A stretch of DNA of 64,000 nucleotides from Siphonodentalium dalli (taxonomy: Eukaryota; Mollusca; Scaphopoda; Gadilida; Siphonodentaliidae), in the NCBI GenBank assembly GCA_032622095.1, contig CP136064.1:279705614-279769613 (forward strand), given 5' to 3'. A program made the position numbers and the translations under genes. Of this stretch, positions 16,101 to 63,705 are shown piece by piece. Position 1 is the stretch's first letter, and each line of letters opens with the position of its first letter. Under the pieces are notes generated by a model. It ran no database searches and was not told the DNA's origin. It saw nothing but the letters and a program-made list of their open reading frames with translations.

Positions 16101-19100
16101 CTCTAGTTTGAGCTTATCGTGTAGTAATGTATAAATCATAGTTGGCTCTAGTTTGAGCTTATCGTGTAGTAATGTATAAATCATAGTTGGCTCTAGTTTG
16201 AGCTTATCGTGTAGTAATGTATAAATCATAGTTGGCTCTAGTTTGAGCTTATCGTGTAGTAATGTATAAATCATAGTTGGCTCTAGTTTGAGCTTATTGT
16301 GTAGTAATGTATAAATCATAGTTGGCTCTAGTTTGAGCTTATCGTGTAGTAATGTATAAATCATAGTTGGCTCTAGTTTGAGCTTATCGTGTAGTAATGT
16401 ATAAATCATAGTTGGCTCTAGTTTGAGCTTATCGTGTAGTAATGTATAAATCATAGTTGGCTCTAGTTTGAGCTTATCGTGTAGTAATGTATAAATCATA
16501 GTTGGCTCTAGTTTGAGCTTATCGTGTAGTAATGTATAAATCATAGTTGGCTCTAGTTTGAGCTTATCGTGTAGTAATGTATAAATCATAGTTGGCTCTA
16601 GTTTGAGCTTATCGTGTAGTAATGTATAAATCATAGTTGGCTCTAGTTTGAGCTTATCGTGTAGTAATGTATAAATCATAGTTGGCTCTAGTTTGAGCTT
16701 ATCGTGTAGTAATGTATAAATCATAGTTGGCTCTAGTTTGAGCTTATCGTGTAGTAATGTATAAATCATAGTTGGCTCTAGTTTGAGCTTATCGTGTAGT
16801 AATGTATAAATCATAGTTGGCTCTAGTTTGAGCTTATCGTGTAGTAATGTATAAATCATAGTTGGCTCTAGTTTGAGCTTATCGTGTAGTAATGTATAAA
16901 TCATAGTTGGCTCTAGTTTGAGCTTATCGTGTAGTAATGTATAAATCATAGTTGGCTCTAGTTTGAGCTTATCGTGTAGTAATGTATAAATCATAGTTGG
17001 CTCTAGTTTGAGCTTATCGTGTAGTAATGTATAAATCATAGTTGGCTCTAGTTTGAGCTTATCGTGTAGTAATGTATAAATCATAGTTGGCTCTAGTTTG
17101 AGCTTATCGTGTAGTAATGTATAAATCATAGTTGGCTCTAGTTTGAGCTTATCGTGTAGTAATGTATAAATCATAGTTGGCTCTAGTTTGAGCTTATCGT
17201 GTAGTAATGTATAAATCATAGTTGGCTCTAGTTTGAGCTTATCGTGTAGTAATGTATAAATCATAGTTGGCTCTAGTTTGAGCTTATCGTGTAGTAATGT
17301 ATAAATCATAGTTGGCTCTAGTTTGAGCTTATCGTGTAGTAATGTATAAATCATAGTTGGCTCTAGTTTGAGCTTATCGTGTAGTAATGTATAAATCATA
17401 GTTGGCTCTAGTTTGAGCTTATCGTGTAGTAATGTATAAATCATAGTTGGCTCTAGTTTGAGCTTATCGTGTAGTAATGTATAAATCATAGTTGGCTCTA
17501 GTTTGAGCTTATCGTGTAGTAATGTATAAATCATAGTTGGCTCTAGTTTGAGCTTATCGTGTAGTAATGTATAAATCATAGTTGGCTCTAGTTTGAGCTT
17601 ATCGTGTAGTAATGTATAAATCATAGTTGGCTCTAGTTTGAGCTTATCGTGTAGTAATGTATAAATCATAGTTGGCTCTAGTTTGAGCTTATCGTGTAGT
17701 AATGTATAAATCATAGTTGGCTCTAGTTTGAGCTTATCGTGTAGTAATGTATAAATCATAGTTGGCTCTAGTTCGATCTTATCATGTAGTAATGTATAAA
17801 TCATAGTTGGCTCTAGTTTGAGCTTATCGTGTAGTAATGAATAAATCATAGTTGGCTCTAGTTTGAGCTTATCGTGTAGTAATGAATAAATCATAGTTGG
17901 CTCTAGTTTGAGCTTATCGTGTAGTAATGAATAAATCATAGTTGGCTCTAGTTTGAGCTTATCGTGTAGTAATGTATAAATCATAGTTGGCTCTAGTTTG
18001 AGCTTATCGTGTAGTAATGTATAAATCTTACACAGGCCATTATATTCCCCCAGATTAAAGTTGGTAAATACTGTGCCTAAAATATGGAAATTAGCACCTA
18101 CGGTATGGTACATGTACATGTATGATATACACATTACTGAGAAAATAATTAGATCACTCCACATTTACCAGAATATCAATGATAAATTATCCCGTCAAAA
18201 TCCTTCATTCACAGAAATAAATGCAAGAATAAAGTTTTTTTGGTGTAAATCTATTAACAGTCCTGAATTCTGACAATTATTGAAATGATGTATTTACTTA
18301 AACAGTCAGAAAAATTCAGTATGTTGTTCCAATCCCAATTTTCTGTCAAAAGGTGTATTTATTTTAATTAATGTACATGTATGAATGTCCATAGAGTGGG
18401 GAAATAAATACTTCCAGTATTTAAAGGTACTCAATCCGTAAAGAGGGTCCCCATCTCAACAGATTCCAACAACAACAATCTGATCAGAGGGTCCTATATT
18501 ACTATTTCTTTGGATTTGGGGGTAAAAAATATTTGATTCGAGTCGAGGAACCCATCAAACAAAGCTCAGAGTTATTAGATATTGATTTTTGAAATTTGTT
18601 ATGTTCTCGAGATGAGTACTAATAACTGCCGTAATCTGCTCTGGATGTGTACTCCAAATCTATTAAAACAGACAAGGATGGATAACTCTAAAATCAAGTG
18701 GTAATTTTAACGCAATTTTGACTGAGTTCTGGGCCAGATAGTATTCCCGACAATGAAAAATAATAGATTTCTAAAATCGATATCTAACAAATCTGAGCTT
18801 TGATGGGTGACTTCCTCGACTCGAATCAAATATTTTTGACCCCCGAAGCCATTGAAATAGTAATTGAGAGGAGTTTTATCGGATTGAGTACCTTTAAACT
18901 AAAATTCAACTATGGGTTGGATTGGGAAAAACTGGTATTTTCACTTTTAAAACTAGTATTCTCTTTTACATGTTTCCATGGATTACTGCTCAACGAGTGA
19001 TACGTTCTTTCAAAATTTGAAAAAAAATTTCAAATTAAGAACAGTATGTAAAATTGATAATTATGCACCAGTCCACCTTTTCAAAAATATTTTGACTCCC

Positions 19101-31100: not shown

Positions 31101-34100
31101 AAGTACATATATATAAGACACAGGGGTCCGGGAATTTTTTTTATTATATTATTTTTAGGGTCAAATTCCCCATTTTAAAGAAATAACACCAAGCTTGGTG
31201 AAAATGGCTTCAAAATCAATTTTTTTTCAAAATACCAAATTTGTTGACAGGACTGCCCCTTCCTTAAATATTATAATAGTCTTCAACACTAACATCCATA
31301 AAATAGGATGAAGCAAAACAAATTGTAAAAATCTATTCCCAAATTCAAAAACATTTCGATTTTTTTTTTAATCTGCCGATCTGCCACTCCGTTTGATCGC
31401 CTATATATAGCCAAAATCATAAACATTATTAGCGCCCTTAATCCCCGGGTTACGTGTATGATATGACCCTATGTCCACATTTTCAGAGGGGTTAAGTCGT
31501 TTTGTCGCCTTTTTCCGGACAGACACACGAACTCAATTTATTTTTATTAGTAAAGGTTAGTGCTAATGTCACTACATGTATATATTTGCACGCGTGACAC
31601 CCCGTCAACAACCCCGCCATCGCTAATGTACGTCCCTAGCCTCGGCACAGAAACTGACCAACATCCCGCGTCTGGACGTCGCCTTGATATGAATCTTGAA
31701 AGCATAATTTCGAGTTTTACTATACGAGTATAGGCTGCACTTTCAAGAATGAACAGTCCGTAGCTGCAGGTAAAATAAAGTCCATCCTGATTACGATGCG
31801 GCAAACTAACTTCATTTATATTATTCGATTAATACAAGCCATTACTCTTTTCATCATTACTATCAATAAAACACGAATTATGCATGCACGCAAGAAACAG
31901 GTCTGTTGTGACAAACGCATGGCCAAATAGCCTGTCTCTTTGAAAAGCCGACGAAATTCCTAACAGATGTACATCGTTTAGGAATTTCGTCTGCTTTCCA
32001 AAGAGACATATACGCATCGTACTCCGGTATCAGGCTATAGCTATTAGGAGGCCATGCAGCTAGCTCGTACTGCGAGAAGCACACTCGATTAATTATCTTC
32101 ATCCGGGCACTCTGAACCAACGGGGCCCGCTTCTTCGTTATGTCGCAATAATCAAAGTGCCCCTTTAAGACATGCATGATATTTTATTAATTGTGTGGGC
32201 ATTTAAATGCTGAGACGGCACAATGTCACAGAACTGGCACATTAAAAGAGGATGTCCCATTTGAATGCCTGGGATACACGTTGGTCAAAATTATAATTGC
32301 ATTTAATTTCTCTATTTTCAAAATGCCATGAATCTCTACTCTGACAACGCTCGTTCAGAGATCATATTCCACCAGTACAAAACCTGGGATCTTTTTGAAC
32401 TTCATAACGATAATTGAAATACTGGTACTAACGCAGGTAATATACATGTACTCTAAGTTAATACAGGTACATGTTCCTTAATAATTACTGATACATGTAC
32501 TAGTACATGTATGTGGTACATGTACGTCCGAAGTAACCCAATCTGTTTTACAGGACAGTGGGAGGAGTGCAAGTGATGTTCTCCCAGGGCTGACTTAAAT
32601 GTCTCTTAGTCGGCAGCATTGTCCAATTTGTTCCAGTCGAGCACTGTTCTTGGAAAGAAGGAATTTCCATTAGTCTGTATTCGTTAAATTTGGTTTGATG
32701 GCAGTCTTGTTAGTGGTCATGCTCTCCATAATGTTATCAAGGGCTGCCTAAGTCCTCAAACTTTTTTTCCTTTCTCCTTGGTCTACATGTACTCTGCTGG
32801 ACAAAACAAGTGTCCATTGGCACCGCGGTGTATTTGCCGTTCAGTTGAGCACCGCGGCCGAACAGCATGTACACTGCGGCCAAATGACAAGTACACCTTG
32901 GCCGAAAGGCAACTACAACGCGGCCGAATGGCTTGTACACCGTAGTTAGATTTCTGGTTTGTATTGTCTTTATTCAGTTTAATGAACGTACACCGCGGCA
33001 TCTACACCATGGCTGAATGGCAAGTACACCGCGGCCCAACTGTAGTTAGCCGGTGGAGCTGCGGTTTAGTTGCATTTCGGCCGCGGTGGCAACGCTAACC
33101 ACACTGCGGTTAAGTGGACACTTGTTTTGTCCAGCAGGGTACCATACTGTTACATGTATTTGGTCAGGATGGTTTTCAGATTTTATACCCACCTACTCGG
33201 GGCCGACCCCTTAATCACTTTATAACATACCCGGTAGTGTCAGTTTCTGCTCGGTTTGATTCTAGTGTTCTTTATTAAAGCATCAATGTTATGCAGCCTT
33301 TCTCTCTTAACCCTTTACCCAACAGAAGGGCCCTGTGCCAATGCATTCTCTTATATATGCGAGTCAACCATAGGTCGCCTCGCATATATAAGAGAAAGCA
33401 TTGGCTTAACACATTAAAAATTATAAAATTGTTAAAGAATGTAAGAACAAATGGTAAAAAGTGTTAAAAAAAGATTTTGTTTAGGCCAATGCATTCTCTT
33501 ATATATGCGAGGCGACCTATGGTCGACTCGCATATATAAGAGAATGCATTGGCACAGGGCTAACTGTAACTATCACAATGTGGTCAATGAGCCGGTTCCA
33601 ATGATATCCATATTTGTATGGTTCTATTGAGACAGACCGAAGATATTTTAGGCTGTTGAAGCTTTATTTGGCCGGTTTTGGCCGGTTTGTTGGGTAAAGG
33701 GTTAAGCGATATTCTTGAGAACCAAGCTGCTCCTTGTTGGGCTCTTTCTGGTTTTGATTTGTTCTTTTCATATACGGTACTTCAGCCCTCATAATTGGCT
33801 ACGGCAATCGGCAATGCCGAAGCCATTTGCTGAAGCAAACTGGGCCACGATAAAGGGTTGCTGTAGCAGATTGCCGAAGCCAAACAATCTGAATTAAAAG
33901 GGCTGGTACTTTACATGTATGTGTAGTGTGGATCCAAGATTGTTGCTGCGTATTATACCTGTACATGGATGGACTAGCACCATGCTAGTATGGTATACCC
34001 GGTACATGTACCATATGTTATGCTACAGGTACCAGTACATGTACCGGTATATAGTCCATTGGGCAGTGTCTTAGATTTTGCAGAATGAGGTCCAGAGGGT

Positions 34101-48000: not shown

Positions 48001-48254
48001 CAAGCCTTGAAATAGGGTGTCTGTCATTTGCAGAATGAGGTCCCCAGAGGGTGAATTTAGTGATGCTACCCCGCATAGCGGGCTAGCATCACCAAATTCA
48101 CCCTCTGGGGACCTCATTCTGCTTACACCTCGGCAGAATGAGGTTCCCAGAGGGTGAATTTGGTGATGCTAGCCCGCTATGCGGGATAGCATCACTAAAT
48201 TCACCCTCTGGGGACCTCATTCTGCAAATGACAGGCACACTATTTCAAGGCTTG
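48001..48254. mobile_element. hAT-like MITE, family H, 254 bp, with 8-bp duplication
   Basis: Ends CAAGCCTTGAAATAGGG and CTATTTCAAGGCTTG, flanked by GATCAGTC at 47993-48000 and 48255-48262. Double hairpin. It ends about 60 bp upstream of the acceptor of the first AKAP1 coding exon. Confidence 0.9.
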
Positions 48255-48325: not shown

Positions 48326-49687
48326 ATGGCAAACTTGAGGACAATCGTTGCTTACGTTGCTCCTTCAGTGACACTGTTGTTTGGTTTCTTATGGTACTTC
48401 ACACGGAGCCGAGATAAGGATGATCCCGCGACGAGTGAAACTCAACCTGCTGCTGTAACGGAAGAAATCAAAGTAAAGGAAGTGGATTGCAATCATGTTG
48501 AAAGTCCGCTTACGGTATCGAAATCTGAAGAATACATGAATGTATATCCTCAGTCGGAAAAAGAGAGTCCGCTTACGGTATCGAAATCTGAAGAATACAT
48601 GAATGTATATCCTCAGTCGGAAAAAGAGAGTCCGCTTACGGTATCGAAATCTGAAGAATACATGAATGTATATCCTCAGTCGGAAAAAGAGAGTCCACTT
48701 GAATCATCCACATCTGAAGAGTACATGTCTGTATGTCCAGTGTCTGAAAAAATGATTGTGGACAATGTCGTCACTAAGCTGAAGGAGGATGCTTCCGCTG
48801 TGACAGAGGTAACTTCAATTACAGACATATTATCAGATATTTTGGATGAAGAAATAGACATGGTGAAGTCTACTAGTCCAAGGCAGATTAGAATTCTTTC
48901 CAGAAATGTCAACAGCAATGCTCGGGATGATGACAGTGATTACACAGATGTCAGATCTCCAGAAAAAACACCTGAACAAACGCACACAGATAGAGCTGTT
49001 GTAGAAGAGATTCTGACATTAACATCGGTGAAAGAATCGCATTGTGAGGTGAAGGCTCCAACGGTTAAACCAGTGATAGCAGAAGGCCAAGAAATGCCAG
49101 AGAAATCGTCGGGTCCTGTGCTGTTGTCTTCTGATGATGATGATGATGTTGTTGTTGTAGAAGAAATCAGTGTTTCAAAATGTGTACAATCCTTCAAATC
49201 GCCAACCTCATTCTCCGACACAGTTCAGAAAGAGTTAGACAACCAGACGCCTGATGTTGTTGTACAAAATGGCGATATTGAAAATAATAATCCAGAGGAT
49301 GAATGTCTCGATAATCTCTGTTTGAGGTGTGGGTCAAATTCAAGAGACAAATGTCTTCATGATAATTGTAACTTGAACAGTACCAAAAATATGTCAGACT
49401 CAAAAAGTCAGTCAACGGAATTTAAAAGTTCCACGCTGGAAAGTAAGACTGTGACGCAAGATGTGAATAAAAATCCTGTCTCAAAAACCTCACAACCAAA
49501 TTGTGTCTCAAATAGTAATAATTCAGTGTCAAACACTCCTAAGACAATCCTCTTACGATCGGAAACCAATTCGTCATCACAAAACTCTGTCAATCAGGTG
49601 CCATCTGATGACCCTAAATCAGACTCTACTGATGCCAAACATTCACTCGGGAGTCCAGAATCATCAAATTTTGATAGTAACAGTGAT
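48326..49687 (+). CDS. AKAP1: AKAP1 exon with start codon, membrane anchor and disordered region
   Basis: 454 codons ending in GTAAGT, phase 0. The ATG is preceded directly by an in-frame TAA (48320-48322), which fixes the start. An AG acceptor at 48313 (TATATTTCCAG) suggests a separate upstream 5' UTR exon. After the anchor the protein is acidic and Ser/Thr-rich. A Cys cluster [17 protein letters not shown] near residues 326-342 is of unknown meaning. The open frame continues 11 codons into the intron before a stop. Confidence 0.92.
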
Positions 49688-52600
49688 GTAAGTATCATTC
49701 ACAATAGACTAAGAGTAAGATAGTAAAGTTACAATGTTCTTGCAATATTGTGCTTAAAGGTTCACAATCCGATTCAATGGTCCCTGTATCATCAGATTCC
49801 AACAACAACAACATTCCTTCAAAAGACACTTTAGTTATCAGAATCGATTAATTACCAAAAAATAATGCTAACCACTGCAAACGTGTTATATATCAACATT
49901 TTGTTCAACGCAAATTGGTATCGAGAGTATGTCGGTCGGCTCGTTGAATACTAAATATTCCTGGCAGGTGGTGAAAAATAATAGATAAAAAAAATTTATA
50001 TCTGAACACGAGCTTTGATGGGTGGGTTCCTCGACTCAAAATCAAATAATTTTTACCCCCGAAGCTTATTAGTAATTTAGGATCGTTAATTCAGCTTAAT
50101 CCTAATTCAGAATTATATAGCTATACCCATATCCTTATTTCCCCCTCTCCTGGTCGCAATTTTCGCCCATTACTAGCGCTGTTTAAAGGACAACAATTCT
50201 GTCAATTCAGTGGAAAAGCATTTTCAATTGGCGAACAAACTCGTGCAATATTTATGTTCACAGATGTTGAGACCAACACAACAGGTATAAAAAAAATCAT
50301 AAAACATCAACTTAGTAAACGTGATTTCCCACATGCTATTAAACCGGATCTATTTATTAATCACATGATAGTCCTGAATCTCCCGAAATTCTGAAAATGT
50401 TAATAATAGTGCAGAGCGGAATAAAAGTTCTGTTTACAATTTGTCAAACATTTTTCTTCCCAAAAATAAAAAAGTTAAATTCTTTGTATGTTTTTAGATA
50501 CTATAATAATAAATCTGATATTATTGAAATTTAGACTTCAAACGACAGTGGTAAGGGAGCGAGTGTGATTGAACCAGCAAATATTCCTACCCAGAACGAG
50601 ATAACAACATACGAGTTCATCTTCCCAACTGATCGGTGTGGGTTGCTCATTGGTAAAAATGGCAAGAATATCAACTACATTAAGGAACAATCTCATGCAA
50701 CGCTGAGTGTGAGAAACAACTTATATACGCCAGCCTTCAGAATATGTACAATAGAGGGTAAGTTTGTTGTAAAATGAAGACTTATTTCTGCCATGTTGCC
50801 TGGCAACTGAATAACTATGGTTCTTTAACCCCCCTGAGAATTATACAAATTGATGACAATATTTTTTTACAGTATTGAATTGATTGTCAGAGCAAATATT
50901 TCAGCTATTGGTTATCAGGCTTGAAGAATGAGGTCCCCAGAGGGTGAATTTAGTGACGTTACCTCAAGCACAGTGGGCTAGCAAGTAGCAACACTTAATT
51001 CACTCTCTGGGGACCTCATTCTGCTTAAGCCTCATCTTCTCTGGAAAGTGTCTTTATTATCAAATTGACAAGTTTTATAGTTTCTTCAGAAACTTCTTTA
51101 GAAAGTTTCTTTTTTAGTTTAGTTTCTCTCTATCCCCAAATTGGCAGACGACACGATGCATAATCGACGTGCATATCACCATCTGGGAACTTAGATCTGT
51201 GTCTAGGTCTCCCATAGCAGATAAGGCCATGCAGAATGAGGTCCACAGAGGATGAATTTGGTGACACAGGGTGGCATCACTAAATTCACCCGCTGGTGAC
51301 CTCATTCTGCAAATGTCCAGCACCATATTTTGAGGCCTGATTTCAGCAATTGGTATCAAGATTTACATTTTTATGGGACGGGGCCTTTCATAATCATTCA
51401 ACATTACGGAGCCTTTTTATAAGCCATGTAAACACCACCTTTAATCATAAAAACGCGAATAGTAAACAAAGGAAATAAATTCCATTCCAGAAACCTATGC
51501 TTTTGGTACATACATTAATACCCTAAATAATTGACTCCTTAACCACAACAGAATTATGGGCAACTTTTCAGGGTTTAGTCGGAAATATGGCTTGTTGCCA
51601 TTCATCGGAAAGCTCTCAGTGAGACCTTTCCGATGAATGGCAACAAGCCATATTTCCGACTAAATCCTGAAAAGTTGCCCATAATTCTGCCTTGGTTAGG
51701 AGTCGCTATTTATGGGCATTACTGTATATAAATCATTTTCTAGTTCAGCTTGTAGTTAATAGTATTTGCTGAATTTGTGTTGATTACTATTTAACATCTA
51801 TGCTGCTATATATCCTTACTGAGTATTGACCTACTTCAACACACTAGCATTCGGCCATTATTCACAATTGAAACACCTCGACTGGTGCATCGGTACCATT
51901 ATACATATGTCACCCACAAGCCTTGAAATAGGGTGTCTGTCATTTGCAGAATGAGGTCCCCAGAGGGTGAATTTAGTGATGCTACCCCGCATAGCGGGCT
52001 AGCATCACCAAATTCACCCTCTGGGGACTTCATTATGCAAATGACAGACACCCTATTTCAAGGCTTGGTCACCCAGGTCATGTCTATTGTCTAATTTGAA
52101 TTTATGAATGTTCTGATGTATTTTTTTCAAAAAACAGTATCTGTGAAATTTTGAGATTTTAGGTTTATTTTTTTAAGTATAAAAAAATATATATATCTGT
52201 AACCATGGTTTCACCATTAAAATGGTATTTGATTGTTGTCAATATTTTAGGTGCACAGCATGAAATAGACACAGCAATGGATATCATTCGGAAAAAGTTT
52301 CCACGCAGCAAATATCCCGAGGTAGACCTCAGTCCTATCTCACAACCTCGGTCGAGCAACCCATACGTTGTTCCAGAAATCATGCAGGTATGTATATAAC
52401 ATTCACTCACGTTAGTGCATTAGTATACTATAAAGGCACAATTGTTCATGGTTGTCTGAGAAATGGATCATTAATTATACCCCCTCCCCCCCCCCCCCCC
52501 TGCAACGAAGTTAGGGGGTGTATACTGGAATCGGCTTGTCTGTCCGTGGACACAAATTTGTGCGGAGATTTTCTGTCGTTTTTTTTATCAATTTCTGTGA

Positions 52601-55600
52601 AACTTGGCACAGACATTAACCACCATGGGATAGGGTTGAAACGATTAATCGACTAGTCGTAGACGATGCTGAAATGTCAGAACGTCGACTCTGAATTTTC
52701 CTGTCGACTAGTCGGAACATAGTGTATTAGTTCCATGTATAACGTTTTCAAGATCGATTCCGGCATAAACGGTGTTAACTGCGCGTAAGTTACGGTAAGT
52801 ATAACGTTTGGTGGCACCCGGAATTGACAGTGTTACTGGTTTAGACACACACGGTGACCCGACTATTAATTGAAAGAATGAAATTGACAACACAATGTCT
52901 CACTCTCGTTTGAGGTCAAAGACATCACTGCGAGTCTGCAACATGATGGTAATGATTGACGCGGCTTTGTCGTTTGTCGGAGACCGCTTTGATCTTGACA
53001 CTGTGTATATTTCAATTCATCTCGCACCGCCGTGTTATGATGCGACGCTATGCGAAGGTCGCTTAAGGTGACGACATTGGTGCTATACCATATATAAATG
53101 ATACTGACAGCGCTTGATCGGCACTCTGGCAATTTTCAAAGAACTAATACAAATTCATCATGGCATCAAACTCGCATAGTAAGCGTACTTCCGACGTGTG
53201 GGAGCAGTTCACTCTTTCAACAGAAAATGGCAGAGAGGTGGTTAAATGCAAGTTGTGCTTAACCAAACTCAAGTACAATAAATCGACCTCAGTTATGAGA
53301 TCCCACCTGGCAGCAAAACATCCGGCGGTGTCTAAATCTACTAGTAAACAATGAGCGCAATCTACACTAAGTTTCCAAGCACCGAAAATAACGAAAGAAC
53401 GATGGACATTAATAACGAAACTCATTGTAGAATGGTGCGCTGTGGACTTACGCCCCATTAGTATTGTCAATGGTGATGGTTTCCGAAAACTACTGAACGA
53501 ATTGGACCCGAAATATAAGGTACCGTGCCATACCACAATCAAGAACCACCTAAATGCTTTCTACAGTGAAAAAAAGAAGCAAATGATAGAAGAACTTCAA
53601 GCGATCCCACACATCTCCATAACGACTGATAATTGGACCAGCTGCACGACGAAAGGTTACATCACCGTGACATTCCACTACATTAATGACGCATGGGAAT
53701 CTAAAACCGGTGTTCTGTGTACGCGTGAACTAACTGATCATCATTCTGGCGAGAATTTGTGCGCAGAGCTCTTAGAAATACTCCAGGACTTTAATATTCC
53801 GCTGGATAAAATAGTGTCTATAACAACAGACAATTCTGCAGACATCGTAAAGGGAGTGGGACTTATTAAAATTGAACACATTCGATGCTTCGCACACAGT
53901 CTACAGCTAGGTGTGAACCGCGGTTTGGAGCTGACTAAAATAAATAGGGCAGCTAAGTGCGCACGAGTACTAGTCTGTCATTTCCGATAGTCAACACTTG
54001 CGTCTTGATGACCTGACGAAGAAGCAAGAACAGCTGTCGATTGTAAAACATCGGCTCATACAAGATGTGTCAACGAGATGGAATTCAACATATTACATGT
54101 TCAAGCGACTCCTTGAACAGAGACTTGCCATGTTTGCCGTCTTGCAGAATCGAGACATTACGTCGTATGGGGATGCTAGAACTTTAGAACTTCCCGACGA
54201 CGTATGGCTCACAATGGAACAAATAACTCCTGTGTTAGAACCATGGAGATGGCGACAACACGTCACAACAGTGACGGGGAGTGATACCTACCCAACCCTC
54301 AGCATGACATATCCTGTTATTAAGGGTCTGTTGAACATCCATTTGTCAGCGAAGGACGATACCCAGTTGGTGAAAGACTTTAAACGGACCGTATCCAACG
54401 ACATTAAGAAACGTTATCCAGTCACGCATGGTACTGACGGCGGACATTTTGTAAAGTCATGCATTGTTAAGGCGAGTGTGTTGGATATTCGTTACAAGAC
54501 ATTAAAGTTTTTATCGTCTGATCAATTACGCAAGTCGGCCTGGGCTACTATCCGGGGCGAAATGGACCCACCCGAGTCATCCGAAGGAGAAATGACAGAA
54601 GTTGATACCACTTCATTGACGCCTAATACATCGTCCAGTTCGTCCGCACCAGCAACGTCGACACCCGACACTGTAACAGCAGCACAATCAAGCAATTATC
54701 GTCCAAAATGCAAGCGTTCAAAGATCGAACAGGCAGACAAAGTTATGCAGTATCTGCTAGGCGACTATTATGAATCGGGTGACGGCACTGAGTCCACTGA
54801 CGGGAAAACATTAGACGAAGAGCTCTCTGCATACCAGAACTAAACACCACAATCTAACATTAACCCCCGCGAATGGTGGAGACAGCATGACAAACGTTTT
54901 CCTAGGCTGGCGATATTAGCCAGGAAATATCTTGCAGTTCCGGGAACATCTGTTCCCGCGGAGCGGGTATTCTCCGTTGCAGGGAATATTGTATCCAAAC
55001 GAAGGTCTAACCTGGACCCTTCAACGGTAGATAAACTTGTATTTTTGCGAGAGAATAATGTTTTCCCAGAGTCTCGCGAGATAGATGCCAGCGAAGTTGG
55101 ACTGGATCTTGATGGTGAAATATCCTGTGAATGCAACATTTGTGTGTCGCCGGGTCCGCCCGCACCTGCCACATAAGTTGACATAACTTAGAACACTTTG
55201 TTGTAATGTTGTTTAATGTTTATTGAAATCAATGTCAATGATTATTAAATTTAAAACCTGTATAAATGATCGTGTTTCTAGTAAACATCTTGATATTTAT
55301 CCAACACACTGAATGTAATTATATAACGTAGCCTATACTATAGGGCATATTTAGTCGGAACAGTAACATTTTATAGATACACCGCTTGGCACCGGTTTAT
55401 TGGTGATCACGTGACTAAACGAAATCTCGGACGCTGATATTAAATTTAAAACCTGTATAAATGATCGTGTTTCTAATCATTACCCACCACATGTCTAATT
55501 ATATAATTACATTCAGGGTGTTGGATAAATATCAAGATGTTTACTGTGTATTATTTCCCAAATAAATTGGTGTCTATGCAGGGAAATGCGCTACGCAATA

Positions 55601-58600
55601 GACCGGCATTCCACCAGTCATCAGTGTACGCCATGTACGATGAATTTCCGTACCATGTTATGTTTGAAAGTTTTGATATCGGGTACCGACTAGTCGACGC
55701 AACCCGACTTTTGGGTCTCGACTAGTCGACTCTGAAATTCACTAATCGTTTCAACACTACCATGGGAACCTGTGTACCTGCGATTATGACGTCTGTCAGA
55801 CTTTTTTTGGTGGAGTTATCCCCCCTTTTTCGACTTAGAAATTGTTTTGCAACATGCATAATTTTGTCCGAGCTTTTATTCCTACATTTTTAGGTCAATG
55901 TTTTTTAATCTTAGCACTGATAAATAGTACCATGGGAACCTGTGCACCTGCGATTATGATGTCTGTCCGACTTTTTTTGGTGGAGTTATTCCCCTTTTTC
56001 GACTTAGAACATTTTCGCAACATGCATAATTTTGTCCGAGCTTTTGTTCCTACATTTTTCGGTAATAGGTGTTATTTTATTATTTTAACTAAATGTTTAC
56101 TGAAATGTGAAACATCTTAGTATTTTTAAAACACAGGGGGTATCCTTAGTCCCATTGGGACAGTCACACCTCAAGTTTTATTGGCCTTAGTAAAGAATGA
56201 GTCTTAATATCCCTCTGAGTAAACACAAAGTAGATGCTAGAAATGTGAAGTGTATACCGTACTGACCCGCGTTTAGGCCCAGGGGGCCTTTGTTTTATTT
56301 GAGCTCAAAAATCCAAGTGGGCTTAAACTCGGATATGACCCTTTGCAAACCAAAAATCCCAAGAAATCGGGACAGTAAAACTGAAAAAATAGATCCATAA
56401 AATAAAGTCAATCCAACACAGAGTTTCAGGGAAATATACATGGCCCATGTTTGCCGAACAATGACGAGGAAATACGAATATACTACAACAACAATGGCAG
56501 CACTTCCGTTTTTCGAGAATTGACGATATTTGCAAGGAAATGGTTTACTTGTTTAAGCTAATTCCGCAGTCGCGAATTCTTAATTACAAAAAAATAAAAT
56601 GAAGTCAGAGGAAATTTTTGAAAAACGATAAAATGGAATTTGGCGGCAGGTTTTGAGTATGGGCGGGCTGGTTACCCTAAACACAGGTATTCTTCGTTTT
56701 GGCCTTATTATTCTCCCCTCTAACTTGTCTAACCAGGTGACAAGACTGCCTCTGTAACATTCAAATTTCCATGATGCCAAATAAATGAGAGACTATTGTA
56801 AATGAGTTAATTAACATATACAATTTCCATTCTGAAGGTGGAAATCCCACAATGTTTTTTTGATAATTCAGGATCAAATTTATAAAAACCAGCTTGCTGG
56901 GAAATTTATGTCCTAAAAAGTTGGAATTAAAACATGCCTGCCAGGTCATTTTTTGGCTTAAAAAATAGTATAAAAACCTGCCTATCTGCATATTTTTTGT
57001 TTAAAGTGTCGTAGAAACAGTTACTTAATTTTGTGACCTAAAGTAGTTTCAGAGTCTTCAATCTTTTGCAGATGAATCTGCCGGAGGGTGTGTCGGTTGA
57101 TGTGATAGTTTCAAGTATAGTCAATGCTGGTCAGGTGTTCATACAGCAGCCAACGCATCCGACATTCCCATCCATAGAGAGGCTTAATCAGCTCATGAGA
57201 CAGTGCTATTGTCAGGAAGGAAACATCCCACCTCTTCCAAAACCAGTCGAAAGTAAGTTTGTCAAGTGATAATAACCAATCCATTTGTTAGAGACAAGCC
57301 TGAGTTTAGTGTGCCTGTCATTTGCAGAATGAGGTCTCCAGAGGGTAAATTTAGTGAAGCTATGCCGCATAGACATAAAGCAACACTTGTCAATCGCCTA
57401 AAGCTAATTGGTTAAAATCATGCTAGGCTGAAGAACTAGACATGCAATGACTACCTCCTGATGACTTATACTGATTGTAATTCAAGATATGACAGAAATA
57501 AACCCTCACCTGAAGAGTTTTTAGAAGAGACTAGGAAAAGGGCATCGCCTTTTCATAGTGACATCATTTTTGACATTACAACTTCAAGAGACGAGCTCTC
57601 TGGTGGAAAATTGTGCCACACGGGGATCAGACATGAAGCGTCATATGGTGCATTTTTGAAACCCAATTTTCTCTATTTTGACAAGGTCGTTCAGTCAAAT
57701 TACAAAAAATATTTGCAGAATCCCAGAGGGTGAATAAGTGATATTACCCGGCACTGCAGGCTAGCATGACCAATTCACCCTCTGGGGATCTCGTTCTGGT
57801 TAGGCCTCATCTTCTGGGAAGTATCTATAGTCTCAGATTAACATTGTTTTTAGTTACTTTTTCCCTTCTGTTCAGTTTATATATCCCCTAATTTGCAGAA
57901 GATGAAATGTGTCAATGCCTATTAATCAAGATGACTGATGGGTGAACATGCTCAGTCTTCATCTGGAAACCTCAATCTAATCCTAGGTCTCCCGCAGTAG
58001 TTGAGGCTTGAGCAGAATGAGGTTCCCAGAGGGTGAATTTGGTGATGCTATCAACCGTGCATGATTGCGTCACTAAATTCACCCTCCAGGGACCTCATAC
58101 TGCAAATGTCAGACACTTGATTCTAATATATCCTTTTAGAACCAAATGGAGGAATTAATTTAGTATTGAATGGGTAAATCACTGACGTTTCTGTTTCAGG
58201 TGGGATAATTTGTGCAGCACCAATGATGAACGGTTGGTTCCGAGCCCAGGTTGTAAATACCTATGATGAGGAAGATGATTGTGATATTAGATATGTCGAT
58301 TATGGAGGTTACGCTAGTGTTAAAGCTGGCATTCTCAGGCAGATCAGGTAATGTACTAGTGTACGATATTTAATTTGTAGATTATGGAGGCCATTAGATC
58401 ATCAACGGAAACATATCTAAATTTCTAATTGTAGAAAAATTGGGTGATTAAGTTTTTAACTTTTCGAAAAATTATGAATAATAAAATTTTGTTTTTGGCC
58501 CTCTTTGGGTGATTACAGAGGTGCTTTTGAACACCTTATTTTTAGCTCAACTTGACAAAGTCATGTTTGAGCTATTGCCATGGGTTGGTATCCATAAGCC

Positions 58601-61600
58601 TGTCAAGAATTTCCTTTCGCACACCCTACCGATCACATCCTATCATCACCAAACTTCACAATGATCTTCGGGGTGACCTCTAGATGGTAGCCATAAAATC
58701 TTTTCCGAAATTCATTAACCCTTAAGGGTCTGGAGATATAGCAATATAATGACTACTGTAGGGTGGCATTAGTATAGCTCATACAACACAACAAAGGATT
58801 AAGGTACAGTGAAGTAACATATGTCAATCTCAAGGTAAATGAAAGTTCTATAAATTGTGACATGTCGCACCTGAGCTAACATGGTTGTCAACTGTCAAAT
58901 TTACCTGTAATCAACAGGTAAAATATTGAAAAACTAATAAATTGATGTTCTGAATTGAATTTCTGTCTTGTGTTTGAATATTTTCAGCATATTTGAGATA
59001 TAAGATCAAATATAACCTTTGTTGGCCAATTTCCACAACTTTGGATGGCTCGAAACAATTATCTCAGTCTCGGGTGGACGACTAACAACCAATGATTATA
59101 AGATGAAATATTCACAGATTCTGAGTTTTACCTATTGTAATGCAATGATTATTATTGTTACTTTGTGTCCCTGTACATTGTCCTGAAATGTTGTATGGGC
59201 CAATATATCTGGATGGAGGTGTCAACTTTTGACCCAGGGCTTCACCTGTCAATCAGCTGACAGTTACCTGTGAACAGGTAACTGAAAGCAATGAAAGTTG
59301 CAAATATTTTTCATAACATAAAATTTATATTGAATGTCTCAAAATAACATGTTTTCAGATACATTTATAGATGTAATGTCTTTCACATACTAATACTGTC
59401 CCAATTTGAGAGAAACTGTACTAATTACAGCCGTAAATGTCAATTTCCTGGATATAGGTGTGTCCTCCTCAACTTGTGATGAAAACAAATTTGTTTGGTA
59501 AACAATTAAGTCTAAAACTTCATCAGTCAGAAAAAGTTCCAAGAACTCAATTTCTGTTGAATTCTCACCCAAAGAATGCTGAGGACCGGTATTATTCCTT
59601 TCAAATCCTGGAATTGCATGACGAACAAGATTTTCAGTCCAGTTATCAGCATGTGTGACAGGTGTTGTTGATTGTTGAGGTGCGTCACCGTGTCCATCAG
59701 AGTCGCTATTTTCATCATCGTCAGATTTATTCTCTTCTGAGTCCGATAAACTGTCATCTAAGTCGGAATAATCTGGTATTTCAACTGGAATTATTTTCTT
59801 TCTGGGCCGCAAAGATGGCATGTTGTATCCGCAGAAACTCAGGTGTACTAAACCAGGTGTATCATGAGAAAAAACATCGAAAAATCACCGATAAAAACGT
59901 GCATGGGCGCGGACATTTTGTATGCGTAATACGTCATCACTACCGGGGTGAATACCACACCGGAAGTAGTTGATTCTATTAGAATTACGATGTTTACCGC
60001 GGGAGTTTTGAAAACTCGGAGTATTCGTATATGGACCCGTAAGGGTTAAAAAAGATGTCTGCCAGCATCCGTCTTTGATATCAAATTTGCATCCATCGGC
60101 ACACCCTGCATCCCGCATTTAATGGGAATCATTAAATTTTACAAGTTGCGAAGCATGGCTGCCAGTGGCCATCTTGAATTTTTCTTTGCATTACTAAATC
60201 GTTCGGCACACCGTATATGTCACATCTCTCATCCAATCATCACAAAACTTAAACTGGTTTTTCAGGGTGACCTCTGGGTGGAGCTATCAATTTTTACCAC
60301 AATTAAAAAAAAAAAACATGGCTGTCAGTAGCCATCTTGGATTTCACATTTGAATCCATCGGCACACCCTGCAGCCCACATTTATTGGAGAATTTTTTTT
60401 AAATGAAATTAATTTCATCCACAAAATACAATTGTTTTGCTGAAACTTTTTTACTTTTATTTTTCTTTATCATTCTATTGACTGCTGAGCATAAAAATAA
60501 CTCCTCCCCAAGTTTAGCTACAGTTTCATTGACACTTTAATTATTTATTTGGCATGTCTTATTATTAAAGAATAAATATTCATATCATTTTTCAGGAGTG
60601 ATTTTATGACGATACCATTCCAGGCAGTTGAATGCTACATGGCAAATATCATACCAACAAATAGTAAGTAATAATATACCAACATATAATAAGTAATAAT
60701 ATACCAAACAAATAATAAGTAATAATATACGAACAAATAGTAAGTAATAATATCATACCAACAGATAGTAAGTAATAATATACCAACAAATCAGAGGTAA
60801 ATATGTGAAGAAAAAAAAATGGTATTAAAAAAGTATTCTAATCTCTGTAGACGCAAACTAAAAAACAGTATTTTCTGTGCATTCATTGTCAAATTTCCAG
60901 CAATGTTACAATGATCATATACAACCAAGTAACCCAGTAACCGAGTACCAGCTTATCACATAATGCTTTATCAAATAAAATTTTTTTTTTTTATAAAACC
61001 CAATTTCAAGATAATAAACAACTTTTTCTATGAATAAAACAATGACAAACTCAAGATTGGGTATATTATTTGTATATAAAGGCACAATAAAGTAGTTTAT
61101 TCCAGTGGTTGTAGAGCAAGACATTTTGTCCTGGTGGAAAGTACTAACAAGATAGAGTTCTCCCCCTCTTGCTTTGTAGCAGCCAATTTCTAAAAAAAAA
61201 TAGTTACTACCATTTTTTTGTGGAAATGAGAACTTGCTTGCCAGAACGAGCCCTGGTGGTGACCCTGCCTAATCAAGTCTGGTTGTAGTGTGTCTTGCAT
61301 TTGTAGAATAATGTCACCAGATGTTAGCATCACCAAATTCACCCTCTGTGGAACTCATTGTGCCTACACTTCATCTTCTGGGAAGTATCTATAGTCTCAA
61401 ATTAACATTGTTTTTAGTTACTTTTTCCCTTCTTTTCAGTTTCTTTTTCACCTAAGAAGGTAAATTGCATAATCGAGGTCACTAATGGGTGAACATCAAC
61501 TACAACTGGGGAACTTCAATCTGATTCTAGGTCTAATTGATACCTAAGCAGAATGAGGTTCCCAGAGGGTGAATTAGGTGATTCTAGCCAGGTCGTGCGT

Positions 61601-63440
61601 CACTAAATTCACCCTCTGGGGACCTCATGTCACACTATGTTGAGGCTTGTGCCTAATGAGTTGCTATTTTTAACTTTCCAGATGAAGACTACTTCAGTAC
61701 AGACGCTACTATGTCGAGGCGTGTGCCTAATGTGTTGCCATTTTTAACTTTCCAGATGAAGACTACTTCAGTACAGACGCTACTATGTCGAGGCGTGTGC
61801 CTAATGTGTTGCTATTTTTAACTTTCCAGATGAAGACTACTTCAGTACAGACGCTACTATGTCGAGGCTTGCGCCTAATGTGTTGCTATTTTTAACTTTC
61901 CAGATAAAGACTACTTCAGTACAGACGCTACTATGTTGAGGCGTGTGCCTAATGAGTTGCTATTTTTAACTTTCCAGATGAAGACTACTTCAGTACAGAC
62001 GCTACTATGTCGAGGCGTGTGCCTAATGTGTTGCTATTGTTGCTTTCCAGATGAAGACTACTTCAGTACAGACGCTACTATGTCGAGGCGTGTGCCTAAT
62101 GTGTTGCTATTTTTAACTTTCCAGATGAAGACTACTTCAGTAAGACGCTACTATGTCGAGGCGTGTGCCTAATGTGTTGCTATTTTTAACTTTCCAGATG
62201 AAGACTACTTCAGTACAGACGCTACTATGTCGAGGCGTGTGCCTAATGTGTTGCTATTTTTAACTTTCCAGATGAAGACTACTTCAGTACAGACGCTACT
62301 ATGTCGAGGCGTGTGCCTAATGTGTTGCTATTTTTAACTTTCCAGATGAAGACTACTTCAGTACAGACGCTACTATGTCGAGGCGTGTGCCTAATGTGTT
62401 GCTATTTTTAACTTTCCAGATGAAGACTACTTCAGTACAGACGCTACTATGTCGAGGCGTGTGCCTAATGCGTTGCTATTTTTAACTTTCCAGATGAAGA
62501 CTACTTCAGTACAGACGCTACTATGTCGAGGCGTGTGCCTAATGCGTTGCTATTTTTAACTTTCCAGATGAAGACTACTTCAGTACAGACGCTACTATGT
62601 CGAGGCGTGTGCCTAATGCGTTGCTATTTTTAACTTTCCAGATGAAGACTACTTCAGTACAGACGCTACTATGTCGAGGCGTGTGCCTAATGTGTTGCTA
62701 TTTTTAACTTTCCAGATGAAGACTACTTCAGTACAGACGCTACTATGTCGAGGCGTGTGCCTAATGTGTTGCTATTGTTGCTTTCCAGATGAAGACTACT
62801 TCAGTACAGACGCTACTATGTCGAGGCATGTGCCTAATGTGTTGCTATTGTTGCTTTCCAGATGAAGACTACTTCAGTACAGACGCTACTATGTCGAGGC
62901 GTGTGCCTAATGCGTTGCTATTTTTAACTTTCCAGATGAAGACTACTTCAGTACAGACGCTACTATGTCGAGGCGTGTGCCTAATGCGTTGCTATTTTTA
63001 ACTTTCCAGATGAAGACTACTTCAGTACAGACGCTACTATGTCGAGGCGTGTGCCTAATGTGTTGCTATTTTTAACTTTCCAGATGAAGACTACTTCAGT
63101 ACAGACGCTACTATGTCGAGGCGTGTGCCTAATGTGTTGCTATTGTTGCTTTCCAGATGAAGACTACTTCAGTACAGACGCTACTATGTCGAGGCGTGTG
63201 CCTAATGTGTTGCTATTGTTGCTTTCCAGATGAAGACTACTTCAGTACAGACGCTACTATGTCGAGGCGTGTGCCTAATGAGTTTCTATTTTTAACTTTC
63301 CAGATGAAGACTACTTCAGTACAGAAGCTGCAGCTGTATTAGAAGAGCTTACTCAAGGGAAGCTACTCCAAGCTCAGGTTGTAGCGCGGTCAGACGATGG
63401 TATTCCATTCATCCATGTCTACCAGATAACAGGATCTCGG
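48326..63440 (+). CDS. AKAP1: AKAP1-like mitochondrial A-kinase anchor protein with KH and Tudor domains, 7 exons, 3' end outside window
   Basis: Exons 48326-49687, 50535-50757, 52251-52387, 57072-57252, 58200-58347, 60596-60663 and 63304-63440 join in phase to 752 codons. Residues about 7-25 form a membrane segment followed by RSRDK, the signal anchor that places AKAP1 on the mitochondrial outer membrane. Residues 59-142 are a fourfold 21-residue repeat. Residues 161-181 ([16 protein letters not shown]) could be the PKA RII-binding amphipathic helix; this is inference. A KH domain (about 480-547) has the GxxG loop GKNG at 494-497. A Tudor domain (about 600-745) has the core [10 protein letters not shown] and [13 protein letters not shown]1 tethers PKA and mRNAs at mitochondria. 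Only the combined anchor-KH-Tudor order supports this name. The last Tudor-side exon is missing to the right. Confidence 0.93.
48500..48751 (+). repeat. AKAP1: 63-bp in-frame coding repeat, 4 copies
   Basis: The first three 21-residue units ([20 protein letters not shown]) are identical at DNA level or nearly so. The fourth is diverged ([20 protein letters not shown]). It lies in the acidic linker after the anchor. Confidence 0.97.
49688..50534. other. AKAP1 intron after exon 1
   Basis: Contains a T-family MITE (49753-50105). The rest is AT-rich with nothing recognised. Acceptor TTGAAATTTAG. Confidence 0.8.
49753..50105. mobile_element. Inverted-repeat MITE, family T, copy 3
   Basis: CTTAAAGGTTCACAATCCGA at the left, and GAGCTTTGATGGGTGGGTTC, CGACTC and TTTTACCCCCGAAGC at the right, as in 18420-18898. 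Termini decayed. Confidence 0.75.
50535..50757 (+). CDS. AKAP1: AKAP1 exon 2: KH domain, first part
   Basis: Starts in phase 0 and ends in phase 1 before GTAAGT. Encodes [20 protein letters not shown], the KH beta1-alpha1-GxxG-alpha2 start, then [10 protein letters not shown] and FRICTIEG. Confidence 0.93.
50916..51340. mobile_element. hAT-like MITE, family H, long form
   Basis: Left palindrome GAATGAGGTCCCCAGAGGGT with inverse, then a spacer, then a second palindrome ending CCTCATTCTGCAAATGTCC. Both outer termini are diverged (CAGGCTTGA and TGAGGCCTG). Confidence 0.82.
51512..51729. mobile_element. Palindromic MITE, family M1, copy 6
   Basis: Complete foldback with centre AAGCTCTCAGTGAGACCTTT. 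Confidence 0.9.
51917..52067. mobile_element. hAT-like MITE, family H, minimal 151-bp form with perfect 8-bp duplication
   Basis: Ends CAAGCCTTGAAATAGGG and CCCTATTTCAAGGCTTG are exact inverses, flanked by GTCACCCA at 51909-51916 and 52068-52075. It has a single hairpin. This copy best defines the family and its 8-bp target size. Confidence 0.95.
52251..52387 (+). CDS. AKAP1: AKAP1 exon 3: end of KH domain
   Basis: 137 nt, phase 1 to 0, between AATATTTTAG and GTATGT. Encodes the last KH helix [17 protein letters not shown] and the linker [19 protein letters not shown]. Confidence 0.92.
52480..52630. repeat. Dispersed repeat interrupted by the hAT, left part
   Basis: A poly-C tract, then GGGGGTGTATACTGGAATCG and GTCTGTCCGTGGACACAAAT. 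The sequence resumes after the hAT at 55760 with the duplicated CCATGGGA. Confidence 0.6.
52631..55759 (+). mobile_element. hAT-family DNA transposon (3129 bp) with 8-bp target duplication
   Basis: Ends TAGGGTTGAAACGATTAAT and ACTAATCGTTTCAACACTA are inverted repeats with few mismatches. They are flanked by CCATGGGA at 52623-52630 and 55760-55767. Subterminal GACTAGTCG motifs are at both ends. It encloses a broken transposase (53160-55176). A related terminal relic is at 42118-42205. Confidence 0.95.
53160..55176 (+). pseudogene. hAT transposase with BED finger, inactivated
   Basis: The N-terminal BED zinc finger (about 53193-53330) has CKLC and HLAAKH. The RNase H-like hAT core follows: [30 protein letters not shown] and TRWNSTYYM. 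The C-terminal dimerisation region (about 54870-55080) has [13 protein letters not shown] and KRRSNLDP. The reading is broken by a TGA at 53352-53354, a frameshift between about 53985 and 53998, and a TAA at 54841-54843, so it cannot make a full enzyme. Domain order and the 8-bp duplication place it in the ZBED/hAT group. A stop codon in a functional spliced version cannot be excluded, but three separate breaks make decay likely. Confidence 0.93.
55757..56105. repeat. Two-copy tandem repeat of about 170 bp
   Basis: ACCATGGGAACCTGTG, TTTTTTTGGTGGAGTTAT and CAACATGCATAATTTTGTCC recur once. It continues the dispersed repeat of 52480-52630. Confidence 0.85.
57072..57252 (+). CDS. AKAP1: AKAP1 exon 4: start of extended Tudor region
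   Basis: 181 nt, phase 0 to 1, between CTTTTGCAG and GTAAGT. Encodes [20 protein letters not shown] and [18 protein letters not shown], as in the segment before the Tudor barrel of AKAP1 and related Tudor proteins. Confidence 0.92.
57294..58126. mobile_element. hAT-like MITE, family H, split by a 340-bp foreign segment
   Basis: 57294-57372 matches the left end (CAAGCCTGAG, TGTCATTTGCAGAATGAGG, AGAGGGTAAATTTAGTGA). 57712-58126 matches the rest of a long-form copy. The part between (57373-57711) is unrelated to the family. Confidence 0.75.
57461..57733 (+). other. Unidentified 90-codon open frame inside the MITE
   Basis: The frame begins [20 protein letters not shown] and has a protein-like composition ([37 protein letters not shown]). 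It runs into MITE sequence at its end. I do not recognise it. It could be a gene fragment captured by the element, or chance. It has no place in the AKAP1 reading, because exons 4 and 5 already join in phase. Confidence 0.35.
58200..58347 (+). CDS. AKAP1: AKAP1 exon 5: Tudor core
   Basis: 148 nt, phase 1 to 2, between GTTTCAG and GTAATG. Encodes [20 protein letters not shown] and [12 protein letters not shown], the Tudor beta strands with aromatic residues W/F and Y/Y in place. Confidence 0.94.
58550..58714. repeat. Dispersed repeat G, left fragment
   Basis: AGCTCAACTTGACAAAGTCA, TTGAGCTATTGCCATGGGTT and CACCAAACTTCACAATGATC. The related right fragment follows the piggyBac insertion at 60050. 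Confidence 0.7.
58715..60049 (-). mobile_element. piggyBac element, internally deleted, flanked by TTAA
   Basis: TTAA at 58715-58718 and 60046-60049. The inverted ends CCCTTAAGGGTC and GGACCCGTAAGGG match apart from an extra base. It carries the N-terminal part of a piggyBac transposase on the minus strand. At about 1.3 kb it is far shorter than a complete piggyBac, so it is non-autonomous. Confidence 0.85.
59390..59821 (-). pseudogene. piggyBac transposase, N-terminal fragment (143 codons)
   Basis: Starts [14 protein letters not shown], then an acidic Ser/Asp-rich stretch ([20 protein letters not shown]). It then enters the piggyBac transposase domain with [20 protein letters not shown]. 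The frame ends after SLKLGQY, far short of the usual 500-600 residues and without the catalytic Asp residues. It lies inside the TTAA-flanked element. Confidence 0.82.
60050..60545. repeat. Dispersed repeat G, right fragment
   Basis: Contains TGGCTGCCAGTGGCCATCTT, CGGCACACC and GAGCTATCAATTTTTACC, and ends with GCTACAGTTTCATTGACACT, which also closes the array at 44205. Confidence 0.75.
60596..60663 (+). CDS. AKAP1: AKAP1 exon 6 (68 nt)
   Basis: Phase 2 to 1, between TTTTTCAG and GTAAGT. Encodes [20 protein letters not shown], the typical Tudor extension motif (PFQAVEC). Confidence 0.93.
60649..60792 (+). repeat. Tandem array of the exon 6 donor, about 6 copies of a 23-28-bp unit
   Basis: The exon end CATACCAACAAATA plus donor GTAAGTAATAATA is repeated into the intron. 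Donor GTAAGT is intact at 60664, 60740 and 60768. In two copies it is changed to ATAAGT. Confidence 0.88.
60664..63303. other. AKAP1 intron after exon 6
   Basis: Begins with the donor array, contains an H-family MITE (61271-61651) and ends with the acceptor array. Between 60800 and 61270 I see only AT-rich sequence. Confidence 0.85.
61271..61651. mobile_element. hAT-like MITE, family H, long form, adjoining the acceptor array
   Basis: Degenerate left palindrome (CACCAAATTCACCCTCTG), the shared spacer (GGGAAGTATCTATAGTCTCA as at 57813), and a right palindrome GAGGTTCCCAGAGGGTGAAT with inverse. The right end CACTATGTTGAGGCTTG is the same sequence, with changes, that sits inside each unit of the acceptor array. 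Confidence 0.8.
61634..63327 (+). repeat. Tandem array of the exon 7 splice acceptor, 22 extra copies (73-74-bp unit)
   Basis: Each unit reads ACTATGTCGAGGCGTGTGCC, then TAATGTGTTGCTATTTTTAA, CTTTCCAG, then the first ~22 nt of exon 7 (ATGAAGACTACTTCAGTACA). The first acceptor is at 61681; the genuine exon copy starts at 63304. A variant tail TTGTTGCTTTCCAG occurs in about five units. All units keep the AG. Confidence 0.95.
63304..63440 (+). CDS. AKAP1: AKAP1 exon 7
   Basis: 137 nt, phase 1 to 0, between AACTTTCCAG and GTAAGT. Encodes [20 protein letters not shown] and [20 protein letters not shown], the final Tudor-SN-like strand region. Only this copy continues past the repeated start into unique coding sequence. 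Confidence 0.93.
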
Positions 63441-63705
63441 GTAAGTCTTTCCTAAATCCATGTCTACCAGATAACTGGATCTCGGGTAAGTGTTTCCTAA
63501 ATCCATGTCTACCAGATAACTGGATCTCGAGTAAGTGTTTCCTAAATCCATGTCTACCAGATAACTGGATCTCGAGTAAGTGTTTCCTAAATCCATGTCT
63601 ACCAGATAACTGGATCTCGAGTAAGTGTTTCCTAATATTTAAACAGACCAGATAACTGAATCTTGTGTAAGTGTAACTAAATCCATGTCTACCAGATAAC
63701 TGGAT
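63411..63705 (+). repeat. Tandem array of the exon 7 donor, about 6 extra copies (45-bp unit)
   Basis: Each unit is the last 30 nt of exon 7 (ATCCATGTCTACCAGATAAC plus TGGATCTCGG) followed by GTAAGT and CTTTCCTAA or GTTTCCTAA. Donors are at 63441, 63486, 63531, 63576 and 63621, with decayed copies beyond. An in-frame TAA ends each unit. Confidence 0.94.

Follow-up and report, generated by a model that had tools for sequence, protein, structure and literature searches.

Tandem arrays of splice-site copies at the boundaries of AKAP1 exons 6 and 7 in the scaphopod Siphonodentalium dalli

We analyzed a 64,000-nt stretch of the genome of the scaphopod mollusc Siphonodentalium dalli (assembly GCA_032622095.1, contig CP136064.1, positions 279,705,614 to 279,769,613 of the forward strand; hereafter the window), the final 3.4 kb of which hold exons 6 and 7 of AKAP1. 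A sequence-only reading had proposed that the splice acceptor of exon 7 is amplified here, by a 73–74-bp unit, into 23 tandem acceptors, and that only the last of them opens into the coding exon. Our analysis confirmed the gene (through its KH and Tudor domains), the exon, the unit and the number of acceptors (by Tandem Repeats Finder and by the spacings), and found exons 6 and 7 to be in frame solely through the acceptor at 63304 among the 23. The array therefore stands as described; the earlier account, limited to the exon 7 acceptor, had overlooked arrays at the donors of exons 6 and 7, variation between two copies of the locus and a precedent in amphioxus.

The AKAP1 gene and its conserved product

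The gene model was built with an AKAP1 probe and by reading the frame. AKAP1 has eight exons, seven of which lie inside the window; exon 8 lies beyond it and was taken from a further copy of the locus in inverted orientation (copy 2, described below; the copy in the window is copy 1). The product has 771 residues and carries KH_1 and TUDOR domains. Intron 5 measures 2248 nt and intron 6 2640 nt; without its array, intron 6 would shrink to approximately 1 kb. The features of copy 1, in window positions, are:

48326–49687, 50535–50757, 52251–52387, 57072–57252 and 58200–58347, plus strand: AKAP1 exons 1–5
58365–58390, plus strand: decayed partial copy of the end of exon 5 (58283–58308), 22 of 26 nt matching, beginning 18 nt past the exon 5 donor
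60596–60663, plus strand: AKAP1 exon 6
60651–60791, plus strand: exon 6 donor array, 25-bp unit (ACCAACAAATA/GTAAGT, the slash marking the exon end), with the real donor and two that score equally
61548–61628, strand undefined: foldback element resembling a miniature inverted-repeat transposable element (MITE-like)
61634–63303, plus strand: 22 decoy acceptor units (branch-point-like motif, polypyrimidine tract, CCAG, exon 7 start), plus the intronic portion of the real unit (number 23)
63304–63440, plus strand: AKAP1 exon 7, 137 nt, acceptor 63303/63304 and donor 63440/63441, placed by the frame and by homologue alignment and identical in copy 2
63411–63705, plus strand: exon 7 donor array, 45-bp unit (exon end and GTAAGT), with six donors here and 11 in copy 2

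A protein search with residues 480–771 returned 411 relatives. Among the best 120, the top match was Haliotis asinina (63% identity), other named molluscs stood at approximately 60%, and four Branchiostoma entries at 42–44%. By these matches the gene appears to be molluscan, with an abalone as its best named relative. When exons 6–8 were aligned with seven relatives (three molluscs, Owenia, Lingula, Limulus and Branchiostoma), all seven lacked an insert where exons 6 and 7 meet; near the exon 7/8 junction, two of them were longer by one or two residues. Since only the last of the 23 acceptors joins exons 6 and 7 in frame to the conserved protein, and since the junction is free of inserts in these relatives, the conserved product requires the acceptor at 63304 and the donors at 60663 and 63440.

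Tandem arrays at the acceptor and donors

Tandem Repeats Finder reported the acceptor array at 61634–63329 (period 74, 23.0 copies, 97% matches, score 3154). Spaced by 73 or 74 nt, the acceptor pattern recurs up to 63304, for a total of 23 occurrences, and extraction of the units from the sequence gave 22 units of 73–74 bp followed by the one that opens into the real exon 7. Each unit is made up of a branch-point-like motif, a polypyrimidine tract, the AG and an exon-derived part of 26 nt, in which 21 nt match exon 7 before a single mismatch; the sequence-only reading was right that the unit includes the exon start, and its figure of approximately 22 nt fell short. The most frequent unit reads ACTATGTCGAGGCGTGTGCCTAATGTGTTGCTATTTTTAACTTTCCAG followed by the 26 exon-7-derived nt. 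The motif GCCTAATG is present in all 23 units and would fit a branch point approximately 26 nt upstream of the exon 7 start. A shorter type, with TTGTTGC in place of TTTTTAAC, accounts for five units, and these are the ones missed by a 38-letter acceptor pattern that otherwise, at up to two mismatches, gave 18 matches in the window versus 0 expected from 100 shuffles. It had also been claimed that every unit keeps the AG and the exon start. This holds for the AG (23 of 23), and for the exon start ATGAAG in all units except unit 4, which reads ATAAAG (22 of 23).

Upon comparing the real acceptor with the decoys, we noted that from –18 to +21 it has the same sequence as 14 of the 22, and from –18 to +24 the same sequence as none, so the difference common to all starts within the exon; two further differences, at –19 and –23, separate it from most units in the unit listing. 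The five-unit pattern of units 13–17 recurs in units 18–22 with one base changed. In copy 1, TAATGAG is found in units 1, 5 and 23; copy 2 has it in the two units at its ends, while all other units read TAATGTG or TAATGCG. The acceptor units multiplied in situ and spread through duplication of whole blocks, with homogenization of the inner units. The foldback element at 61548–61628 stops just ahead of the first unit. Unit 7 has lost one C and now reads TTCA/GTAAGA, which together with its own acceptor would make a 15-nt in-frame micro-exon (62125–62139) with a weak donor (3.8).

Donors were scored with splice-site weights. The GT of unit 7 is the sole one in the acceptor array to score 3 or more, as compared to 7.1–10.5 for the real donors. 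The exon 7 donor lies within the 45-bp array (6.6 copies), and its second donor scores the same as the real one (10.46); the exon 6 donor lies within the 25-bp array (5.5 copies). With the decayed copy at exon 5, local duplication is thus seen at three of the seven AKAP1 donors (exons 5, 6 and 7). All 14 AKAP1 splice sites were then assessed by local alignment of the exon edge with the adjacent 600 nt, against 400 control segments for each site. An exon-edge copy scored above all 400 controls at four sites, namely the exon 5 donor (22/26 nt), the exon 6 donor, the exon 7 acceptor and the exon 7 donor. The remaining 10 sites showed no excess over their 400 controls; the lowest p value among them was 0.05, for the acceptor of exon 8, which was assessed in copy 2.

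Upstream acceptors had been expected to bring frameshifts or stops "usually"; the stops are there, and without exception, since all 22 lead to a stop 21–89 codons past exon 6 in copy 1. In copy 2, all nine AG-bearing decoy acceptors do so 19–74 codons past exon 6. The downstream donors tested in copy 1, three at exon 6 and five at exon 7, all stop early as well (at residues 708 and 756 of 771, respectively). Among the alternatives tested, the 771-residue frame closes solely with the last acceptor and the first donors.

An inverted counterpart of the AKAP1 locus

We searched the 2.23-Gb assembly for the 74-nt unit; the counts are lower bounds. At least 34 matches were found, 23 in the window and 11 on the minus strand approximately 173 kb away. 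All of the matches found fall in the two AKAP1 arrays, and a dispersed element such as an introner-like mobile intron was rejected on this basis. Beyond the arrays, the whole window is matched in inverted orientation by another part of its chromosome (about 279939000–279989000), in colinear blocks of approximately 93–99.7% identity interrupted by stretches, the longest 8.4 kb, that have no match.

In copy 2 the acceptor array counts 11 units; the AG is missing from one, so that over both copies 33 of the 34 units retain it. The arrays differ between copy 1 and copy 2 in acceptor units (23 versus 11) and in exon 7 donors (6 versus 11), and the exon 6 array differs as well. In exons 1–7, by comparison, only 4 of 2256 nt differ, three of them silently, and exon 7 is identical (0 of 137 nt). 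The reading frame is intact in both copies of the gene. An insertion with the ends CAGCCCT and AGGGCTG lies within the exon 6 donor array of copy 2 and is absent from that of copy 1. Elsewhere in the window, a 45-bp array of 84 copies occupies 14235–18027 in copy 1, and its 18-letter core is found 77 times in copy 1 versus once in copy 2; local arrays can therefore differ more than 10-fold between the two copies. By contrast to the splice-site arrays, an in-frame 63-bp repeat in AKAP1 exon 1 (48503–48700; 21 residues, 3.1 copies) has the same copy number in both.

Copy 1 is followed by a gap of 100 N (65332–65431), and the contig of copy 2 starts after another gap (229739–229838, in window-based numbering). 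Copy 2 is probably the other haplotype, left unmerged in the scaffold, and an inverted duplication is less likely. High heterozygosity is described as very common in molluscs (PMC12005716). These gaps, which bound the stretch between the two copies, could also be taken to favor an assembly artefact in which the number of units is wrong through misassembly of repeats. Nevertheless, the arrays occur at the same sites in both copies with different internal variants, and the point differences among units are ordered, which makes such an artefact highly improbable.

Origin of the arrays and choice of splice site

The region around the locus is rich in minisatellites: arrays with a period of at least 20 and at least 2.5 copies make up 15% of 294 kb, and 0.7–22% of four distant 10-kb stretches. 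To set the four positive splice sites against this background, we used a score threshold of 32 (that of the weakest of the four) in the donor direction only, with a pool of non-genic points that includes parts of both locus copies. Duplications of equal strength straddled 208 of 1490 random points (14.0%), or 331 of 1484 (22.3%) when an 18.6-kb satellite stretch was counted. The four positives among 14 AKAP1 sites compare with 1.95 expected at the first rate (P = 0.12) and 3.1 at the second (P = 0.38). Special targeting of splice sites is hence unsupported, four of 14 being compatible with random-point rates, and the AKAP1 boundaries are neither clearly enriched nor depleted in duplications. 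The satellite stretch consists of merged tandem arrays and lies past the window, right after the scaffold gap (65432–84078, window-based).

These rates bear on the possibility that the array is functional, some transcripts being spliced to decoys and degraded, so that the number of units tunes AKAP1 dosage in a manner resembling poison exons. Every AG-bearing decoy does lead to a stop (21–89 codons past exon 6 in copy 1 and 19–74 in copy 2), and 33 of 34 units over both copies retain the AG, both of which speak in its favor. However, the retained AG is explained by recent amplification (97% matches), two intact copies differ twofold in unit number, and random points of the region carry local duplications about as often. 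We therefore consider a role in dosage unlikely.

Several known arrangements share features with the AKAP1 arrays. In NAGNAG tandem acceptors and in duplicated exons of the Dscam type, several acceptors compete for one donor. The AKAP1 acceptors, unlike NAGNAG wobble sites, are spaced by 73–74 nt and bring stops when used as decoys, and the units, unlike tandem exons, lack a good donor (one weak GT, 3.8, in the entire acceptor array); they are therefore neither wobble sites nor exons.

The closest likeness is to the "mirages" of amphioxus. Mirages resemble minisatellites, with sequence at 5' and 3' intron/exon boundaries duplicated in tandem as units of 10–160 bp, and are reported for the globins BflGb6 and BflGb9 and for Adh3 (PMC3087553); the lancelet genes PGBD5 and TnC were added later (PMC3902484). 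BflGb6 haplotypes carry six versus three units, inner units are homogenized with edge units set apart, and the AG or GT is kept in many, not all, units (PMC3087553). Globin reverse transcription PCR and Adh3 data suggest regular splicing despite the mirages, and somatic length instability is reported for the Adh3 mirage (PMC3087553). The AKAP1 units likewise span intron/exon boundaries (at the acceptor and the donors), many retain the AG or GT (33 of 34 acceptor units; 6 and 11 exon 7 donors), and inner units are homogenized with distinct edges. Haplotype variation (23 versus 11, and 6 versus 11) would also be shared if copy 2 is the other haplotype, as is probable. The intact frames of both AKAP1 copies agree with undisturbed splicing. 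The differences are that the host is a mollusc rather than a cephalochordate, that there are 23 units as opposed to the six cited for BflGb6, and that within a single gene an exon is affected on either side, as are two neighboring donors. The AKAP1 arrays carry mirage-like structures beyond the cephalochordates, to which the reports we found assign them, into another phylum, by a mechanism that is ordinary as far as can be told.

Other systems are further removed. Human paralogs in segmental duplications have variable-copy internal tandem repeats at exon-intron boundaries, tied to exon change or novel introns (PMC2812944); the repeats reach the boundary in both cases, whereas in AKAP1 the reading frame and the exon are unchanged. 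For the potato RdRp gene, intron gain through tandem genomic duplication is reported (PMC4974935). Splice signals are duplicated there and in AKAP1, the AKAP1 duplication staying within an existing intron without making a new one. Earthworm metallothionein genes have intronic minisatellites and also extra copies of exon 4 that are absent from the transcript (PMC12783039). AKAP1 shares duplicated exon sequence and minisatellites in an intron with them, but the earthworm copies comprise whole exons and the array lies inside intron 1, with no splice-site array noted in the text consulted. In the literature searched, with subscription papers mostly outside its coverage, splice-tolerated boundary arrays were not found outside cephalochordates.

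How might one acceptor be chosen out of 23? The sequence-only reading had left two options, a strong preference for the last acceptor or many aberrant isoforms. A preference fits better, because both copies are in frame despite the twofold difference in unit number. The second option, in which the acceptors are indistinguishable and AKAP1 makes many aberrant isoforms, draws on the 14 of 22 decoys that match the real site over –18 to +21. It is quite unlikely given that the frame and splice sites are intact in both copies and that amphioxus mirages are reported not to interfere with regular splicing.

A 370-nt RNA stretch of five units folded worse than 100 of 100 shuffles (z = +3.2), and hairpins that mask the decoys are thereby ruled out. 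With most decoys equal over the recognized site, RNA that is poorly structured and a single weak donor, the sequence downstream of the acceptor, exon body and donor, is most likely decisive. Exon definition is expected at intron lengths such as 2248 and 2640 nt. By this mechanism, the spliceosome would join exon 6 to the last acceptor since no other acceptor leads straight into the rest of exon 7 and on to its donor; decoy acceptors would have no good donor to pair with, and decoy donors would lie on the intron side. Pairing between the acceptor and the donor closest to the exon would restore the exon needed by the conserved protein, so that the arrays would be nearly neutral and free to grow. 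A slight leak would be expected from the decoys closest to the exon (20–22), with the leaked RNAs, which would carry premature stops, removed by nonsense-mediated decay.

We therefore favor the view that the arrays are mirages, that is, short tandem duplications straddling a boundary that grew into minisatellites and are tolerated near-neutrally through exon definition, and we regard this view as probable. For their growth, near-neutral expansion of minisatellites in a repeat-rich genome is the most likely account. Several observations weigh against this view. Decoys 20–22 would give exons of 211–357 nt, still within the usual range, and cannot be barred on grounds of length alone. Most decoys equal the real acceptor in strength by sequence, and the exon 6 donor (7.06) is matched by two later GT sites and exceeded by the GT at 60796 (7.82). 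Acceptor use is itself deduced from the conserved protein. As to how general the tolerance may be, none of the eight boundaries of four myosin exons elsewhere was duplicated (best score 22); these were four exons from 85 myosin-head matches, with ends set by profile match rather than at exact splice sites, too small a sample for a genome-wide statement.

A broader and more doubtful proposal is that splice junctions are unshielded, boundary arrays arising at the non-coding rate and strict exon definition favoring exon-proximal sites over identical decoys. If true, splice-decoy arrays would occur naturally in large numbers in this genome and be polymorphic even in a single individual, and new introns and isoforms could continually arise from them outside cephalochordates. 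For AKAP1 itself, 23 acceptors, most of them identical over the recognized site, amount to a natural experiment on 3' splice site choice: site strength cannot decide among identical acceptors, so position relative to the exon body and donor must. The two versions with 23 and 11 units, being probably allelic, would offer a dose comparison within one animal, and arrays of this kind have been proposed as a step towards intron gain.

Two further repeats were noted near the arrays and within the gene. The foldback MITE-like element belongs to a family whose core, AATTCACCCTCTGG, gave 23 matches with up to one mismatch versus 0.02 expected; its members include 61548–61628, 34080–34270, 48030–48225 and others, and another precedes exon 8 in copy 2. 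Intron 3 of AKAP1 holds a likely remnant of a hAT transposase (53355–55173), of which only the final piece, 54844–55173, has a Pfam match (hAT dimerization region).

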